Source: an uncultured Butyrivibrio sp. (GTDB lineage: Bacteria > Bacillota > Clostridia > Lachnospirales > Lachnospiraceae). Taken from it: 17,010 nucleotides of DNA. A program made the translations under genes and the position numbers. The DNA lies in contig CAMVRW010000018.1 in the NCBI GenBank assembly GCA_947169985.1, forward strand, positions 1-17,010, in the 5' to 3' direction. Shown piece by piece: positions 2,102 through 17,010 of this stretch; position 1 is the stretch's first letter; every line of letters begins with the position of its first letter. The notes under the pieces are model-generated. The model was not told the origin of the DNA. It saw only the letters and a list, made by a program, of their open reading frames with translations, and ran no database searches.

Positions 2102-3178
2102 ATGGGCGAAAATTCAGCATATTACAGGGAAATGAATCAGGCAAAGCGCGAAAATATCAAGCAGGTAAAAACTCAGCTTCCACAGCACACTCACGCTTTC
2201 ATCGAGGAGTGTCTCTTGAGATACCAGATCAACACTGTCTACAGCTACAGCCATGATCTTTTGATCTTCTATCAGTATCTTAAGCAGAACAACCCCCTGT
2301 GCAAAAATCTTGATACAAAAGATATCTCTTTTGACGTTATAAAATCCCTTTCCCCCGCTGATATCAACGAATTTCAGAACTATCTTGGCTTCGGCGACAG
2401 AGAAAATGGTAAAAGAGGCGAGAACCCTCGTGCAGTTGCCAGAAAAATGGCATCCATAAGGAATTTCTTTGGATACCTTGTAAAAATGGACCTTATTGCC
2501 CAGGATCCCACAGCTAAGGCTGCCAAAAAGAAAAGAGAAATTGAGAACGAGATCTTCAGACTGGATTCCGATGAGGTAAAACAGCTCATGGATGCTGTTG
2601 CCAACGTGCAGGTAAAGAACAAGCACTCCAAGACCCTTTGCGAGAATACTGCCAAAAGAGATCTTGCCATAATAACCCTGCTTCTTGGAACCGGGATCCG
2701 TGTCTCCGAGTGCGCCGGAATCGACTTAAATGACGTAAACTTTAGCACCAATACCATCTCCATCGTCAGAAAAGGTGGTAAGGCTACGGATATTTATATA
2801 AGTGAACAGGTTCGAAATGCCCTTAAGGACTACATCAAGCATGAACGTCCTATGCTTTTGGCGGATGAAAAAGAGCCTGCGTTGTTTATCTCTCTTAAAC
2901 ATACGAGGCTCTCTGTCAGAAGCATCCAATATATGGTTGAAAAATACGGAAACAATCTGGGCCTTACAAGGAAATTATCTCCTCACAAGCTCAGAAAGAC
3001 CTATGGTACCGCCCTTTATAACAAAACAGGTGATATTTATATGGTTGCCGATGTCCTTGGCCACAAGGATGTCAACACCACTGTCAAACACTACGCAGCC
3101 ATGGAAGAAAAGCATAAACAGATGGCTGCTCAAATAGACATTTATGGTTCAGAAGACGATATTACTGAAGTCCCTTAA
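2102..3178 (+). CDS. Tyrosine recombinase of the XerC/XerD/XerS type
   Basis: A 358-residue site-specific recombinase. An N-terminal SAM-like core-binding domain (about residues 25-130) precedes the catalytic domain (about 150-345). The full catalytic set is visible: Arg200 (GTGIRVSE), Lys224 in the beta hairpin, His295 and Arg298 (PHKLR), His321 (LGHKD) and nucleophile Tyr331 (KHYAAM). Length matches the single-recombinase XerS type (about 356) better than XerC or XerD (about 300), because of an N-terminal extension and an insert near residues 165-185. Chromosome dimer resolution is the simplest role, but a dif site is not visible beside it and an integrase-like role cannot be excluded. GGAGG lies about ten bases before the start. 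The 3' end overlaps the converging flavodoxin gene by 17 bases. Confidence 0.9.
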   Translation: MGENSAYYREMNQAKRENIKQVKTQLPQHTHAFIEECLLRYQINTVYSYSHDLLIFYQYLKQNNPLCKNLDTKDISFDVIKSLSPADINEFQNYLGFGDRENGKRGENPRAVARKMASIRNFFGYLVKMDLIAQDPTAKAAKKKREIENEIFRLDSDEVKQLMDAVANVQVKNKHSKTLCENTAKRDLAIITLLLGTGIRVSECAGIDLNDVNFSTNTISIVRKGGKATDIYISEQVRNALKDYIKHERPMLLADEKEPALFISLKHTRLSVRSIQYMVEKYGNNLGLTRKLSPHKLRKTYGTALYNKTGDIYMVADVLGHKDVNTTVKHYAAMEEKHKQMAAQIDIYGSEDDITEVP

Positions 3179-8687: not shown

Positions 8688-9593
8688 TTATTTTACCTCA
8701 ACAAGCTCAATCTTGAAGTTCAGCTCTTTTCCTGCCATCTCATGGTTAGCATCAAAGGTAATTGTTGTATCATCCTTAGCTGTAACCTTTACAGGAATTG
8801 GTCTTCCGTAGAAGTCCTGAAGGTAAACCTGCTGTCCTACTTCTGCGTCTTCAGAACCGGGAAGCTCTGCAATCTTCAGTGAAAATACAGCCTCAGGATC
8901 AAACTCTCCATATGCTTCGTTTGGAGTAAGGTGGATATCACGGATCTCGCCAACCTCCATGTCAGCTACAGCCATATCAAATCCTCTGATCATCATGCCA
9001 TAGCCACAGGTAAACTCTAAAGGCTCTCCCCTGTCATAGGAAGAATCGAACTGACTTCCATCGTTAAAGGTTCCCTTGTAGTGAACACGGCAGGTTTTTC
9101 CGACGTTCTTGCCCTCAAACAAAGGCTCAGAGTGGCAACCACTGCATCCGCCACATCCGCCGCTTGAACAGCCGCCACACTCTTCCTCAGCTTCATCATC
9201 ATTGTCGTGATGTCCGCAATGTCCCTCATCATCGTGGTGATCACCGCAGCTGTGACCCTCTCCGTGATGATCACAGTTAACACCTGAATCTGTAAGCTCT
9301 CCTCTAAGATATGCCTCTACAGCCTCATCAGCGTTTCCTGATACACCTGCACACATCTCAATGCCGTTCTCCATAAGAGCGTCATGGGCGCCACCGCCGA
9401 TTCCGCCGCAGATAAGTACATCTACCTTCTGATCTGCAAGAAGACCTGCAAGAGCTCCATGTCCCTCGCCGTTTGAGCTGATAACTTCTGAAGAAATGAC
9501 CTTTCCGTCCTCTACTTCATATACCTTAAAAGCCTCTGAGTGTCCAAAATGCTGAAATACTTCACCATTATCATAAGTTACTGCAATTCTCAT
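8688..9593 (-). CDS. Fusion of NifX/NifB-type cofactor-binding domain, His/Cys-rich linker and SlyD-like FKBP prolyl isomerase
   Basis: A 301-residue protein with three parts. Residues 1-97 (MRIAVTYDNGEVFQHFGHSE...) match the dinitrogenase iron-molybdenum cofactor-binding domain found in NifX, NifY and stand-alone proteins, with the typical FGH near residue 17 and a GGIGGGA loop. Residues 106-154 form a metal-binding stretch with nine His and eight Cys. Residues 161-301 are an FKBP-type prolyl isomerase with an inserted flap domain as in SlyD (VHYKGTFNDGSQFDSS, EAYGEFDPEAVF). SlyD normally carries its His/Cys tail at the C-terminus; here it sits between the domains. A role in metal handling or metalloprotein maturation (nickel or iron) is inferred. 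GGAG lies ten bases before the start. It is first of four genes. Confidence 0.9.
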   Translation of the reverse strand: MRIAVTYDNGEVFQHFGHSEAFKVYEVEDGKVISSEVISSNGEGHGALAGLLADQKVDVLICGGIGGGAHDALMENGIEMCAGVSGNADEAVEAYLRGELTDSGVNCDHHGEGHSCGDHHDDEGHCGHHDNDDEAEEECGGCSSGGCGGCSGCHSEPLFEGKNVGKTCRVHYKGTFNDGSQFDSSYDRGEPLEFTCGYGMMIRGFDMAVADMEVGEIRDIHLTPNEAYGEFDPEAVFSLKIAELPGSEDAEVGQQVYLQDFYGRPIPVKVTAKDDTTITFDANHEMAGKELNFKIELVEVK

Positions 9594-10839: not shown

Positions 10840-11508
10840 TTAAACTCTTCTTATAAGAATTGCATTGATGACATGGTCGATTCCCCTGATGTCATCTACC
10901 AGAGAATCCGGCGGCGGATTATCTATCTCGATAGTCATAATGGCCTCTCCGCCCTTATGAAGCCTTGAAAGCCTGAAATTAGAGATATTAAGATCCTCAT
11001 GCTCCCAGTGCATCAGGTTGGTCACGCTGGCGATTACGCCGGGCTTATCCTCATGCATAACAAGGATGGTGTTGTTATCACCATTAAACTCAACAGTCAT
11101 GCCGTTTATCTGGTTTACCAGAATATTTCCGCCACCGATGCTGGCTCCCTGCATGACGCCATCGCTGCCATCGTCAAGATAGTAGTGGATCCTTGCAGTG
11201 TTTGGATGCGCTCCAGATATGTTTTCCTTATTAAAAGAGTATTCGATGCCTCTTTCATCTGCTATCTCAAGAGCATTTCTGATCTCCGGTGAATAGCTTT
11301 TATAGCCCATTATTCCTGCAAGTAGCGCCTTGTCCGTTCCATGCCCCTTATAGGTCTGGGCAAAGGAGCCTGAAAGAGTGATCTCCACCTTTTTCAAAGT
11401 TCTTTCATCTATGAGCTTGTTCACCACTCTTCCAAGGCGCACAGCGCCTGCAGTGTGAGAACTTGACGGTCCTATCATCACAGGGCCGATTATGTCAAAA
11501 ACATTCAT
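10840..11508 (-). CDS. sdaAB: L-serine dehydratase, iron-sulfur dependent, beta subunit
   Basis: A 222-residue beta subunit. It opens with the conserved IGPVMIGPSSSHTAGAVR, whose SSSHT (residues 15-19) forms part of the serine and allosteric binding region, and ends in an ACT domain (about 147-222; ILVMHEDKPGVIASVTNLM) that likely senses serine or another amino acid. With SdaAA it makes the active heterodimer in the cytoplasm. GGAGG lies six bases before the start. It is the first gene of the sdaAB-sdaAA pair and is transcribed away from glnA. A perfect TATAAT about 40 bases upstream is the likely -10 box. Confidence 0.95.
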   Translation of the reverse strand: MNVFDIIGPVMIGPSSSHTAGAVRLGRVVNKLIDERTLKKVEITLSGSFAQTYKGHGTDKALLAGIMGYKSYSPEIRNALEIADERGIEYSFNKENISGAHPNTARIHYYLDDGSDGVMQGASIGGGNILVNQINGMTVEFNGDNNTILVMHEDKPGVIASVTNLMHWEHEDLNISNFRLSRLHKGGEAIMTIEIDNPPPDSLVDDIRGIDHVINAILIRRV

Positions 11509-11545
11509 TCCAATTCCTCCGAAAGGCTTTTTATACCTATGAATA

Positions 11546-11551
11546 ATTATA
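11546..11551 (-). promoter_or_regulatory. -10 box of the sdaAB-sdaAA operon
   Basis: A perfect TATAAT on the minus strand about 38 bases before the sdaAB start. No -35 match is seen at 16 to 18 bases upstream. It lies back to back with the glnA promoter, about 22 bases away, so one bound regulator could affect both operons. Confidence 0.4.
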
Positions 11552-11572
11552 TCAAATAAAGCAAATGGCTAC

Positions 11573-11606
11573 TTGCTTTGACTGTACTATTTATGTAAAA
11601 TATCTA
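11573..11606 (+). promoter_or_regulatory. Promoter of glnA
   Basis: Two overlapping readings exist: TTGCTT (11573-11578) with TAAAAT (11596-11601), and TTGACT (11578-11583) with TATCTA (11601-11606), both with 17-base spacers. The first has the better -10, the second the better -35. Either puts the transcript start near 11608-11613, right before the leader hairpin. Confidence 0.5.
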
Positions 11607-11611
11607 GAGGC

Positions 11612-11664
11612 AAGGGCGCCAGAACTCGGACATATTCTGTTCGCTGTTTCTGGTGCCTTTTTCT
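11612..11664 (+). terminator. Intrinsic terminator in the glnA leader (attenuator candidate)
   Basis: AAGGGCGCCAGAA (11612-11624) pairs with TTCTGGTGCCTTT (11648-11660), 13 base pairs with two G-U, enclosing a smaller stem CGGAC/GTTCG (11627-11631 and 11639-11643). A T-run (11658-11662) follows. It points toward glnA only, since the other strand has no T-run, and the nearest gene upstream on this strand ends at 9924, so it is best explained as premature termination of the glnA transcript. A second TTCTG at 11635-11639 could pair with the same CAGAA (11620-11624) and break the terminator. The ANTAR gene downstream is a candidate antitermination factor. Confidence 0.7.
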
Positions 11665-11706
11665 ATATTATCCTATGGAAAACTAAGTCTTGGTTAAGGA
11701 GGAATC

Positions 11707-13040
11707 ATGAGCAAGTATACTAAGGAAGATATATTCCGCATTGTGGAGGAAGAGGATGTAGCTTTTATCAGGCTTCAGTTCTGTGACATTTTCGGTGTTC
11801 CAAAGAACATCGCCATAGCTGCAAGCCAGCTGGAAGGTGCACTGAACAACGAGTGTTTGACGGCGTATCTGTAGAGGGCTTTGTCCGCAGCGATGAGAGC
11901 GATATGTATCTCTATCCCGACCTGGACAGCTTTGAGATATATCCCTGGCGTCCACAGTCCGGTAAGGTTGCCCGTATGTTCTGCAACGTTTACACCGTAG
12001 ACAGACAGCCATTTGCAGGTGATCCCAGACATGTCCTGAAGCAGGTGGTTGAAAAGGCAGCTAAAATGGGCCTTAATTTCAAAGTCAATCCTGAGCCGGA
12101 ATTTTTCCTTTTTGATTATGACGATGAGGGACAGCCTACCACTCATACAAAGGAAAAGGGCGGATATTTTGACGTTGCCCCTGCAGACCAGGGAGAAAAC
12201 GTCCGCCGTGACATAATCCTCAATCTTGAAGAAATGGGCTTTGAGATTTCCTCATCTCACCATGAGATTGCTCCTGCCCAGCATGAGATTGAATTCAAGG
12301 CTGAAGATGCAGAGAGAACTGCAGACATGATCATGACCTTCAAGATGGCTGTTAAAACCATTGCCAAGAAGCACGGCCTTTATGCCACCTTCCTTCCAAA
12401 GCCTACAGAAGGAATCAGTGGTTCAGGTATGCATATAAACATCGTTGCCAAGGATGAGAAAGGAAATAACCTTTTTGCTTCAGAAAATGGTGAGAAGCTT
12501 TCAGACACCGCCCTTCACTTTATCGCCGGTGTTCTCTCCCATGTAAAGGGCATGACTCTTGTGACCAATCCTCTGGTTAATTCCTATAAGAGACTGGTTC
12601 CAGGTTATGATGCTCCCGTAAACATCTCCTGGTCTTCAACCTCCGCCAACAGAAGCGCTCTTATCCGCATCCCTTCTAAGAGAGGCGAGGGTACAAGGAT
12701 AGAGATCAGAAACCCTGATGCTACCTGCAATCCTTACCTCGCAATAGCACTTATTCTCGCTGCAGGTATCGATGGCATTGAAAAGAAAATGACTCCTCCC
12801 GATGAGCTCAACGAGAATCTGGGCCGGGCAACCTATGAACAGCTCCGCAACAGCGGCTATGAGACACTTCCCATGACTCTTGGTGAAGCCATCCATGCCT
12901 ATGAATCAGATGATTTCGTAAAAGAGGTACTGGGAGAATCCATATTTAACAAATTCCTCGACGCAAAAAGAGCTGAGTGGAAGGATTTCCGCACCTGCGT
13001 AACCCAGTGGGAAATCCAGAGATATCTCAATTTGTTCTAA
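11707..13040 (+). pseudogene. glnA: Glutamine synthetase type I, frameshifted after codon 50
   Basis: Glutamine synthetase makes glutamine from glutamate, ammonia and ATP as a cytoplasmic dodecamer. From ATG 11707 (AGGAGG five bases upstream) the frame encodes MSKYTKEDIFRIVEEED and on to LNNEC, then leaves the family sequence and stops at 11872-11874 (55 residues). The rest (VFDGVSVEGFVRSDESDMYL to QRYLNLF) continues in another frame to 13040 with all GS landmarks: PEPEFFLF, HHEIAPAQHEIEF, SGSGMH and NRSALIRIP. Relatives read NNECMFDG here, so GAGTGTTTGAC looks like GAG TGT ATG TTT GAC minus four bases, between TGT repeats. Restored, the protein would be 445 residues (Bacillus 444). It may be a real null allele, a mixed population or a sequence error. 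No ribosome binding site supports restart at GTG 11853. Confidence 0.85.
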
Positions 13041-13080
13041 GCACTTTAAGTACCACAATCTTTAGCACGAGGCGGATTTA

Positions 13081-13629
13081 GTGAACATTATTGTAGCTTT
13101 TGCCAAGGCGGAAAACGCCCAGAATATCAAAAGCATATTGAGCCGTGGCGGCTTTGACGGGGTCATCACCTGTTCTTCAGGTGTTCAGGCCCTTTCAGCC
13201 ATGGACGATCTTGGAAGCGGAGTCATTATCTGTGGCTACCGCCTGAGTGATATGCTCTATTCTGAGCTCCTTGAAGACCTTCCGCCCTACTTCAAAATGC
13301 TGCTTATTGCATCCACTGACAGAGCCCCTTCAGACGCTGATAATGACCGCCTCATATACCTTTCAACACCGCTTCAAAGGGCAGATCTCTTTTCCACCCT
13401 TAATCTGATGCTTGAGGGCGTACACAGGCTCAAAAAGAAAGCCAAGGAACGCAGGATGAAGCGCTCCGAGGCAGACAAAAAGGTCATCGACCAGGCTAAA
13501 GCTCTTTTGATGGAAAGACATCATATGACTGAGCCGGAGGCCCACAAATATCTTCAGAAATGTGCCATGGATTCAGGCACAGACATGCTTGAGACGGCGG
13601 GAATGATCATTTCCCTGACGAACATATAA
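13081..13629 (+). CDS. ANTAR-domain RNA-binding regulator with degenerate receiver domain
   Basis: A 182-residue protein starting at GTG 13081, with GAGGCGG upstream, 40 bases after glnA and probably co-transcribed. Residues 1-110 have the response regulator fold, but the usual phospho-acceptor site reads ICGYRLSD, with Gly52 where Asp is expected; the N-terminal acidic pair is missing (AFAKAEN), and the conserved Lys is Thr96 (LSTPL). It is therefore probably not controlled by phosphorylation. A helical linker (about 110-130) leads to an ANTAR domain (about 128-182, AKALLMERHHMTEPEAHKYLQ), which binds paired hairpins in leader RNAs and prevents termination. Similar genes stand beside glnA in other Clostridia. 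The glnA leader and the gltD-amt gap hold terminator hairpins that are its likely targets. Confidence 0.88.
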   Translation: MNIIVAFAKAENAQNIKSILSRGGFDGVITCSSGVQALSAMDDLGSGVIICGYRLSDMLYSELLEDLPPYFKMLLIASTDRAPSDADNDRLIYLSTPLQRADLFSTLNLMLEGVHRLKKKAKERRMKRSEADKKVIDQAKALLMERHHMTEPEAHKYLQKCAMDSGTDMLETAGMIISLTNI

Positions 13630-14244: not shown

Positions 14245-16023
14245 TTACTCTACGTCCTGGAGGGCTGCTACGCCTTCCTCGCCGGTACGTACCTTAACTA
14301 CGCGGCTTACATTGTAAACGAATATCTTACCATCACCGATATGTCCGGTGTAAAGAGCCTTCTTGGCTGCTTCAATAACCTTCTGTACAGGGATCTTGGA
14401 AACAATGACCTCAACCTTAACTTTAGGAAGCAGGGTTGAATCCACTGTAGCACCACGGTATTTGTCGGTAGAACCCTTCTGAACACCGCAGCCCATTACC
14501 TGAGTCATTGTCATACCTGTTACACCAAGCTCATTAAGGGCTTTCTTAAGGGTATCAAACTTGGCAAGCTTGCAGATGATAGATACCTTGTGCATACCAG
14601 TATCGAATTCCTCTGACAAAGGAGCCTCCATAGAAACCTGAACTGCTGCATTTTTCTTAGCATCGCTGGCGGCTTCATAATCGCTCTCACCAAGGTCTGT
14701 GTTCTCGTTAACATCAACAGTAAGAGTGTTTGAAATATCCATGATGCTGAATCCTGCATAAGCAGATGTAAGACCGTGCTCTGTGGAATCAAGACCTGTG
14801 ATCTCCTCTTCCTCAGATACTCTAAGGCCTATGAGAGCTTTAATAATAACAAATGCTATTGTAATTGTAAGGGCTGTCCAGGCGGCTACGGTTGCAAAAC
14901 CAAGAAGCTGTATCAGGAGTGTGTGTGTTCCGCCGCCATAGAACAAGCCCACTACACCAGTCTCCTCGTTTCCGGGAGCTGTAGGTGTTGCAAAAAGACC
15001 AACTGCGATAGTTCCCCAGATACCATTCATCATATGTACTGCTACTGCACCAACAGGATCATCAACTCTGAGCTTGTAATCAAGGAACCAAACTCCAAAG
15101 CAAACCAGAAGACCTGCTACTGCACCGATAACAATTGCACCAAAGCAGTCTGTTACATCACAGGGAGCTGTGATAGCTACAAGACCTGCCAAAGATGCGT
15201 TGAGAGACATTGAAACATCGGGCTTACCATACTTAACCCATGTGAAGATCATTGTTACTACTGTTGCTACTGCAGGAGCTACAGTTGTTGTAAGGAAGAT
15301 GGAAGCCAGCTGAGGTCCGCTTGTAGCAGCTGCTCCGTTGAATCCATACCATCCAAACCAGAGAATGAAACATCCAAGAGCACCGATTGCCAGGTTACTG
15401 CCTGGGAATGCGTTAACTTCTGTAATGTTGCCGTTCTTATCCTTAGTAAACTTACCGATTCTTGGTCCAAGCATAGCTGCGCCGATAAGGGCTGAAATAC
15501 CACCTACCATGTGGATCGCACAGGATCCTGCAAAATCATGGAAGCCAAGCTGAGAGAGCCAGCCGCCGCCCCAGATCCAGTGAGCCTCGATAGGATAGAT
15601 AAGTCCTGAGATCACTGCTGAATAGATACAGTAGGACAGGAATTTTGTTCTCTCAGCCATGGCTCCTGATACGATGGTTGCTGTTGTAGCACAGAATACC
15701 AGGTTGAACACAAAGTTTGAGAAGTCAAAGTTTGCATAGGATGTAAAAATGTCGAATCCCGGCTTTCCAATGAACCCCATAAGGTCCTCCCCAAGTAAAA
15801 GTGAAAAGCCGATCAGGATGAACATTACGGTTCCAATACAGAAATCCATAAGGTTCTTCATAAGAATGTTACCTGTATTCTTGGCTCTGGTGAATCCTGC
15901 CTCCACCATGGCGAATCCTGCCTGCATCCAGAATACAAGAGCGGCTCCGATAAGGAACCAGATTGCAAAGATAGTTGTTGTTGAAGATTCAGATACTAAA
16001 CTTCTGATAGCTTCTTCTGTCAT
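14245..16023 (-). CDS. amt: Ammonium transporter fused to a P-II signalling domain
   Basis: A 592-residue fusion. Residues 1-405 are an Amt/MEP/Rh channel with about eleven membrane helices; the twin histidines of the pore are His171 (CAIHMVGG) and His330 (VAVHMMNG), and the family signature surrounds FHDFAGS (Asp163). A linker of about 70 residues follows, then a complete P-II domain (about 477-592; HKVSIICKLAKFDTLKKAL to YNVSRVVKVRTGEEG). In the T-loop, YRGATVDSTLLPK replaces the usual YRGAEYMVDFLPK, so the tyrosine that is uridylylated in enteric GlnK is Val527. The P-II part probably plugs the channel directly in response to ATP, ADP and 2-oxoglutarate. AGGAGG precedes the start. No complete promoter fits between it and gltD, so it may rely on read-through. 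Confidence 0.95.
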   Translation of the reverse strand: MTEEAIRSLVSESSTTTIFAIWFLIGAALVFWMQAGFAMVEAGFTRAKNTGNILMKNLMDFCIGTVMFILIGFSLLLGEDLMGFIGKPGFDIFTSYANFDFSNFVFNLVFCATTATIVSGAMAERTKFLSYCIYSAVISGLIYPIEAHWIWGGGWLSQLGFHDFAGSCAIHMVGGISALIGAAMLGPRIGKFTKDKNGNITEVNAFPGSNLAIGALGCFILWFGWYGFNGAAATSGPQLASIFLTTTVAPAVATVVTMIFTWVKYGKPDVSMSLNASLAGLVAITAPCDVTDCFGAIVIGAVAGLLVCFGVWFLDYKLRVDDPVGAVAVHMMNGIWGTIAVGLFATPTAPGNEETGVVGLFYGGGTHTLLIQLLGFATVAAWTALTITIAFVIIKALIGLRVSEEEEITGLDSTEHGLTSAYAGFSIMDISNTLTVDVNENTDLGESDYEAASDAKKNAAVQVSMEAPLSEEFDTGMHKVSIICKLAKFDTLKKALNELGVTGMTMTQVMGCGVQKGSTDKYRGATVDSTLLPKVKVEVIVSKIPVQKVIEAAKKALYTGHIGDGKIFVYNVSRVVKVRTGEEGVAALQDVE

Positions 16024-16108: not shown

Positions 16109-17010
16109 TTACATATTTGAGTAACCCATCAGGTACTCATCTATTTCCCGGGCACATTCCCTGCCCTCTGCGATAGCCCATACCACCAGTGACTGGCCTC
16201 TGTGCATATCTCCCGCAGTGAACACCTTGTCCACATTGGTCCTGTAATTAGGTAAAAGAGTTTCAACCACTCCTCTATCTGTAAGCTTTACACCAAAATC
16301 CTTGGCTGTATATTCTTCACAGCCAACAAATCCGGCTGCTATAAGAAGTAGATCACACCTTATCTCCTCTTCACTTCCGGGAACCTCAGTGAGCTTTCCA
16401 TCCTTAAACTGGACCTTCACTGTCTTTATTCCGCTAAGCTTGTCATTTTTGGTGATCAGCTCTTTTACTGTGGTCTCATATATTCTTGGATCACTTCCAA
16501 ACTTTGCTATCGCTTCCTGCTGGCCATAATCTGTCTTAAGGACCTTGGGCCACTCAGGCCATGGATTGTCAGGTCTCCTTACAACGGGCGGAGCAGGCAT
16601 CATTTCAAGCTGTATGGCTGAACGACATCCGTGTCGCAGGCACGTGCCAAGACAGTCATTTCCGGTGTCACCACCGCCAACAATCACAACCCTCTTGTCC
16701 TTGGCACTGATAAAGGTTCCTTCCTTAAGTCCGGAATCTAAAAGACTTTTTGTAGTAGATTTAAGAAAATCCACTGCATAGTGTACGCCTTTTACCTTCT
16801 CAAAGCCCTTAACCCCCAGGGGCCTTGCCTTCTTAGCGCCGCAGCATAGTGCGATCGCGTCATACTGGGCCAAAAGCTCTTTTGCACTGATGCTGTCCTT
16901 ATCCCCTTTTTCACCAACATTCACACCGGTTCGGAATACTACCCCTTCCTGCTCCATAAGGCTCTTCCGCCTCTCGATTACCTCTTTCTGGAGCTTCATG
17001 TTGGGGATTC
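16109..17010 (-). CDS. gltD: Glutamate synthase [NADPH] small subunit, C-terminal part
   Basis: The frame is open to the right edge, so the N-terminal part, including the 4Fe-4S cysteines and most of the FAD domain, lies outside. What remains is about 300 residues beginning at the [14 protein letters not shown] stretch typical of GltD. It includes an NADPH-binding [13 protein letters not shown] and the C-terminal FAD-contacting [19 protein letters not shown]. The small subunit passes electrons from NADPH to the large subunit, which turns glutamine and 2-oxoglutarate into two glutamates; a related NADPH-ferredoxin oxidoreductase or a dihydropyrimidine dehydrogenase subunit is less likely given the neighbours. 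With amt and glnA it completes the GS/GOGAT pathway. An internal ATG at 16999 is not the start. Confidence 0.92.

Follow-up and report, generated by a model that had tools for sequence, protein, structure and literature searches.

The window, by which we mean the whole stretch of DNA analysed, is 17,010 bases long, forms one complete contig of a draft assembly and contains a glnA gene whose coding sequence is divided between two overlapping reading frames. The N-terminal frame (11707..11874, plus strand) begins at ATG 11707, which is preceded by a strong ribosome site, AAGGAGGA just upstream, and runs for 55 codons to a TAG; it agrees with the family for 50 codons and is then out of frame up to the stop at 11874. 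The rest of the type I glutamine synthetase is encoded in a different frame (11853..13040, plus strand) of 395 codons, counted from a GTG at 11853, and the two frames overlap by 22 bases (11853-11874). The beta-grasp domain PF03951 is split over both, positions 1-34 of 82 lying in the N-terminal piece and 36-81 in the C-terminal piece, and beta-grasp and catalytic domain do not stand in one continuous frame. The catalytic domain PF00120 is complete in the C-terminal piece (2-344 of 344, 416 bits), indicating that the first-pass annotation was right to call all other glutamine synthetase motifs intact, as the remaining domains are whole by Pfam. The likeness to GlnA (TIGR00653; PF03951 plus PF00120) lies in the presence of both Pfam domains across the two pieces and in the score of the C-terminal piece, which exceeds the TIGR00653 cut-off of 429.15 (469 bits, positions 46-461 of 462), whereas the difference lies in a frame broken inside the beta-grasp domain, a state found in none of 29 aligned relatives.

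On the 3' side of glnA follows a gene for an ANTAR-domain protein (13081..13629, plus strand; 182 residues in an open frame, PF03861 with 65.5 bits), which among the matches listed is aligned over all 182 residues in three loci of relatives (L113, L114 and L115). Beyond it, three genes are encoded on the opposite strand: a GNAT acetyltransferase gene, one for a fusion of ammonium transporter and P-II domain, and a gltD-like gene. The fusion (14245..16023, minus strand) is one protein of 592 residues with PF00909 and PF00543 and is matched in L115 with 94% over 592 residues. The gltD-like gene for a glutamate synthase small subunit (16109..17008, minus strand) had been described as intact, a term that does not hold for a gene that runs off the contig end after 299 residues; it covers positions 186-483 of 485 of TIGR01317 with 347.5 bits, below the cut-off of 447.7. 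Elsewhere in the window a minus-strand frame (8688-9593) joins PF02579 (dinitrogenase iron-molybdenum cofactor) and PF00254 (FKBP isomerase) by a stretch rich in His, Cys and Gly, and a plus-strand frame (2102-3178) encodes a tyrosine recombinase/integrase (PF00589), of which the nearest relative has a copy with about 90% identity. Searches of the window with Rfam at the gathering threshold and with ARAGORN returned no matches and no genes, respectively, and a plasmid search gave four records, none with a single place of more than 80% of the query.

The leader of glnA contains two overlapping hairpins (11609..11662, plus strand). The first is an ANTAR-type hairpin with a hexaloop (11609-11620); the second, at about 11613-11662, is a stem that resembles an intrinsic terminator, has a T tail and shares bases with the 3' arm of the first. 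The region 11596-11706 folds with -34.4 kcal/mol and a z-score of -3.29; a scan with a consensus terminator gave no more than shuffled sequences did (one found versus a mean of 1.6). Both by fold and by letters, a six-base loop with A at position 1 and G at position 4 overlaps the first arm of the terminator-like hairpin, and the exact hexaloop hairpin motif occurs once in the window when both strands are searched. By raw motif count such a hexaloop is present in the window and in 24 of 29 relatives, and in one more (L012) it sits on a paired stem very unlike the others; the motif is absent in L014, L018, L024 and L025, and other A1/G4 loops occur in several leaders. Across 17 aligned leader sequences the columns are on average 38% identical; in several of these leaders, for example L007, L008, L014 and L024, inspection by eye does not reveal the terminator-like stem. 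ANTAR target leaders beside glutamine synthetase genes, with A1 and G4 in both of their loops, are described in the available part of a commentary (PMC3369936). The window resembles the ANTAR-controlled nitrogen leaders of that account in the neighbouring ANTAR gene and in an A1/G4 hexaloop before glnA that overlaps the arm of a terminator-like hairpin; it differs in the second, upstream hairpin P1, again with A1 and G4, for which a script search of the 260 bases before glnA with stems of at least 3 pairs gave no hit. It is plausible that the glnA leader of the window is a member of the described ANTAR target kind.

How does the broken frame compare with glnA in related genomes? At the junction (11850..11864, plus strand) the window is four bases short against 29 of 29 aligned relatives of the same genus: the distance from the start-codon position to the junction is 146 nt in the window and 150 nt in every relative, in agreement with the earlier proposal of a frame break after codon 50 caused by a four-base loss. 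In all 29 copies both pieces lie in a single frame of 435-451 codons, counted from the position aligned to the window start codon, which is itself not a start in L009, L010, L011 and L021. The 29 relatives are the 30 kept loci minus the window; counting the genome of the window, 50 of 61 genomes gave a match, so that 20 matching relatives lie outside the alignment, and the frame count also leaves out 79 loci from a separate search. In a set of 60 same-genus genomes, drawn evenly from a larger group, 47 have a full-length PF00120 match of type I in frames of 437-548 residues with no inner stop; the window frame with the type I match, at 417 residues, is shorter than all of these. Moreover, a database protein of 445 residues (P0001), which was among the best 120 listed in a search that scored the 7996 candidates sharing most words, is identical to the N-terminal piece at 50 of 50 residues, agrees with the C-terminal piece (395 residues) except at the residue of the junction and at three further ones, and contains PF03951 whole. 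An intact, near-identical glnA therefore exists. The source fields of P0001 are empty, as they are for proteins encoded by the window, yet the window does not spell it out exactly; the cluster of nine member sequences to which P0001 belongs may include the window's own fragment. Apart from being four bases short in one draft assembly, the glnA of the window is ordinary for a type I glutamine synthetase.

As origin of the loss, slippage between TGT repeats had been suggested. This is one of two placements of the missing bases that fit, but it requires that the codon preceding the junction be spelled as in 3 of 29 relatives. A synonymous spelling is used in 23 of 29, the nearest relative included, and another residue in the remaining 3, so that the flanking repeat perhaps comprised two bases, since from the synonymous spelling the same final sequence can be reached with a two-base flanking repeat. 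Slippage is possible as origin of the four-base loss, with no specific indication for it in the letters around the junction.

Apart from this single break in frames and domains no second lesion is seen in the window glnA. Compared with the nearest relative the C-terminal piece has a dN of 0.031 and a dS of 1.17 and the N-terminal piece (49 codons) a dN of 0.017 and a dS of 1.30; the ANTAR gene, for comparison, has 0.049 and 0.89, all these values coming from a single relative whose distance brings dS close to saturation. Relaxed selection on glnA is not seen in these values, which is compatible with a very recent lesion. The lack of a second lesion and the strong conservation indicate that the break arose very recently or else is absent from the cell. 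The first-pass annotation had reckoned with a recent or artefactual origin, and this view gains from the strong selection, from the intact frame in all 29 aligned relatives and from the near-identical, intact P0001.

The source assembly, which we infer to be a metagenome assembly, is fragmentary, with 376 contigs, apparently numbered by size, of which the first has 26.5 kb, and 2.53 Mb in total; it is 66.85% complete and 2.02% contaminated by the figures the tool gives. Frame breaks in it were surveyed by comparing the window and six other stretches with 106 loci of relatives, covering 96,364 bases of relative-supported coding sequence, 12,159 of them in the window and about 84 kb outside. The survey gave ten candidate pairs of broken frames, of which six represent the window glnA, flagged from six of six relatives. 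Two others mark one and the same place (L120:689-820), which reads as intergenic in a DNA alignment with the nearest relative, and the candidates in L121 and L124 were read from the listing as shadow frames opposite long relative-supported frames. Besides glnA no frame break was thus accepted in the approximately 84 kb. The survey covers frame changes only; it also listed 241 alignments with internal stops, which are unsorted and many of which look like shadow frames or like stop-to-stop frames extended upstream. A generally error-ridden assembly is not what the six other stretches suggest.

Loss of the type I enzyme had been expected to leave the cell dependent on glutamine or on a second glutamine synthetase. 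A search of the same assembly revealed two full-length type III glutamine synthetases in unbroken frames on other contigs, of 703 residues (G000:C12, L119:1861-3969) and 696 residues (G000:C37, L120:6036-8123), both with PF12437 (type III N domain), PF00120 and PF18318. We have discarded glutamine dependence in view of these two enzymes and of 13 genomes, out of the 60 of the genus, in which no full-length type I match occurs. Among the matches listed, a weaker glutamine synthetase-like one lies in frames of 295-416 residues in nine of these 13, and the other four show no frames but those of type III length. Three of the 13 (G004, G051 and G053) are 95-99% complete; the other ten are 60-89% complete, so that absence means little there. 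In G004 the weaker match has one TGA inside. With 13 of 60 genomes lacking a full-length type I match and three of these near-complete, type I glutamine synthetase may be dispensable in the genus.

How could the frame of glnA have come to be broken in this one record? We lean towards an assembly or consensus error. Four bases would then have been lost in the data and not in the cell, low read depth might lie behind the error, and the organism's own glnA would read straight through as in its relatives. Arguing for such an error are the fragmentary state of the assembly, the strong conservation of a gene with no second lesion, the unbroken frame in 29 of 29 aligned relatives and in the type I matches of 47 of 60 genomes, the intact P0001, and published experience. 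Against it count the lack of another accepted break in about 84 kb and the fact that short-read errors most commonly take other forms than a deletion of four bases. As to the published experience, the available text of a study of frame transitions, covering 1106 complete genomes, expects sequencing error, and not true insertion or deletion, to underlie singletons with BLASTp-validated frameshifts, allowing also for indels in pseudogenes in the case of 3244 of those singletons (PMC3711429). A study of 126,564 genomes attributes, in the part available, many pseudogenes to assembly and implicates assembler, platform and coverage (PMC11017572). In the same part the numbers of pseudogenes with frameshifts or internal stops changed with the assembler chosen, low read quality increased internal stops more strongly than it did frameshifts, and the causal analysis for frameshifts named only coverage, with 37% confidence; metagenome assemblies are placed outside the scope of the study (PMC11017572). 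The window is like the singleton frameshift genes of both accounts in that one conserved gene is broken in one record while the homologues are intact. It differs in that it is known from an assembly alone, and neither paper, as far as the available text goes, is shown to cover metagenome assemblies (PMC3711429; PMC11017572).

As the chief alternative, the break could be a genuine, recent and private four-base deletion that inactivates the type I enzyme in the strain or in part of the population, with the two type III enzymes taking over. The two full-length type III genes on other contigs are consistent with such a replacement, as is the absence of a full-length type I match from 13 of the 60 genomes of the genus, three of them at 95-99% completeness. 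The lack of any other accepted break in about 84 kb points the same way, since an assembly with no visible abundance of frame breaks counts somewhat for a real mutation. Against it stand the near-identical intact protein P0001, the occurrence of the break in no other genome among those compared, and the lack of a second lesion or of relaxed selection, although such signs would be missing after a very recent lesion. On balance we regard a genuine deletion as a tentative possibility, somewhat on the doubtful side.

A type I enzyme held in an off-state by selection, in a Butyrivibrio-like population presumably living in the rumen, with the two type III enzymes assimilating nitrogen and the ANTAR and Amt-P-II genes staying in place, appears highly improbable to us. 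The two readings that invoke recoding or a switch are, even taken together, equally improbable. One is a programmed ribosomal frameshift or a restart at GTG 11853. The 22-base overlap of the frames and the GTG opening of the downstream frame would fit such recoding, but the frame transition is conserved in none of 29 aligned relatives and a restarted product would lack half of the beta-grasp domain. Programmed frameshifts have X XXY YYZ as their slippery heptamer motif. By eye no such heptamer is found in frame at the junction, nor do the 14 bases ahead of the GTG show anything like a ribosome site, and we have discarded frameshift and restart alike on these grounds, each being very unlikely. 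The other reading, and the least credible of all, is the reversible on/off switch by slipped-strand mispairing proposed in the first-pass annotation, for which a repeat of two or three bases does flank the four-base loss but which meets with no tandem repeat at the break (none in 11500-13100 at a minimum score of 30), no direct repeat of at least 8 bases across the junction in 11760-11960, and one continuous frame in 29 of 29 aligned relatives; it, too, has been discarded. The lack of a tandem repeat and of the break in any aligned relative makes a switch as well as a programmed frameshift unlikely.

With an assembly or consensus error as the preferred explanation, the locus serves mainly as a warning not to equate a broken frame with loss of function or auxotrophy when a conserved gene is seen in a fragmentary assembly. 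In the same genus some near-complete genomes are already without a full-length type I match, and should the break in the window be genuine, it would offer a single natural example of type III glutamine synthetase possibly standing in for the type I enzyme.
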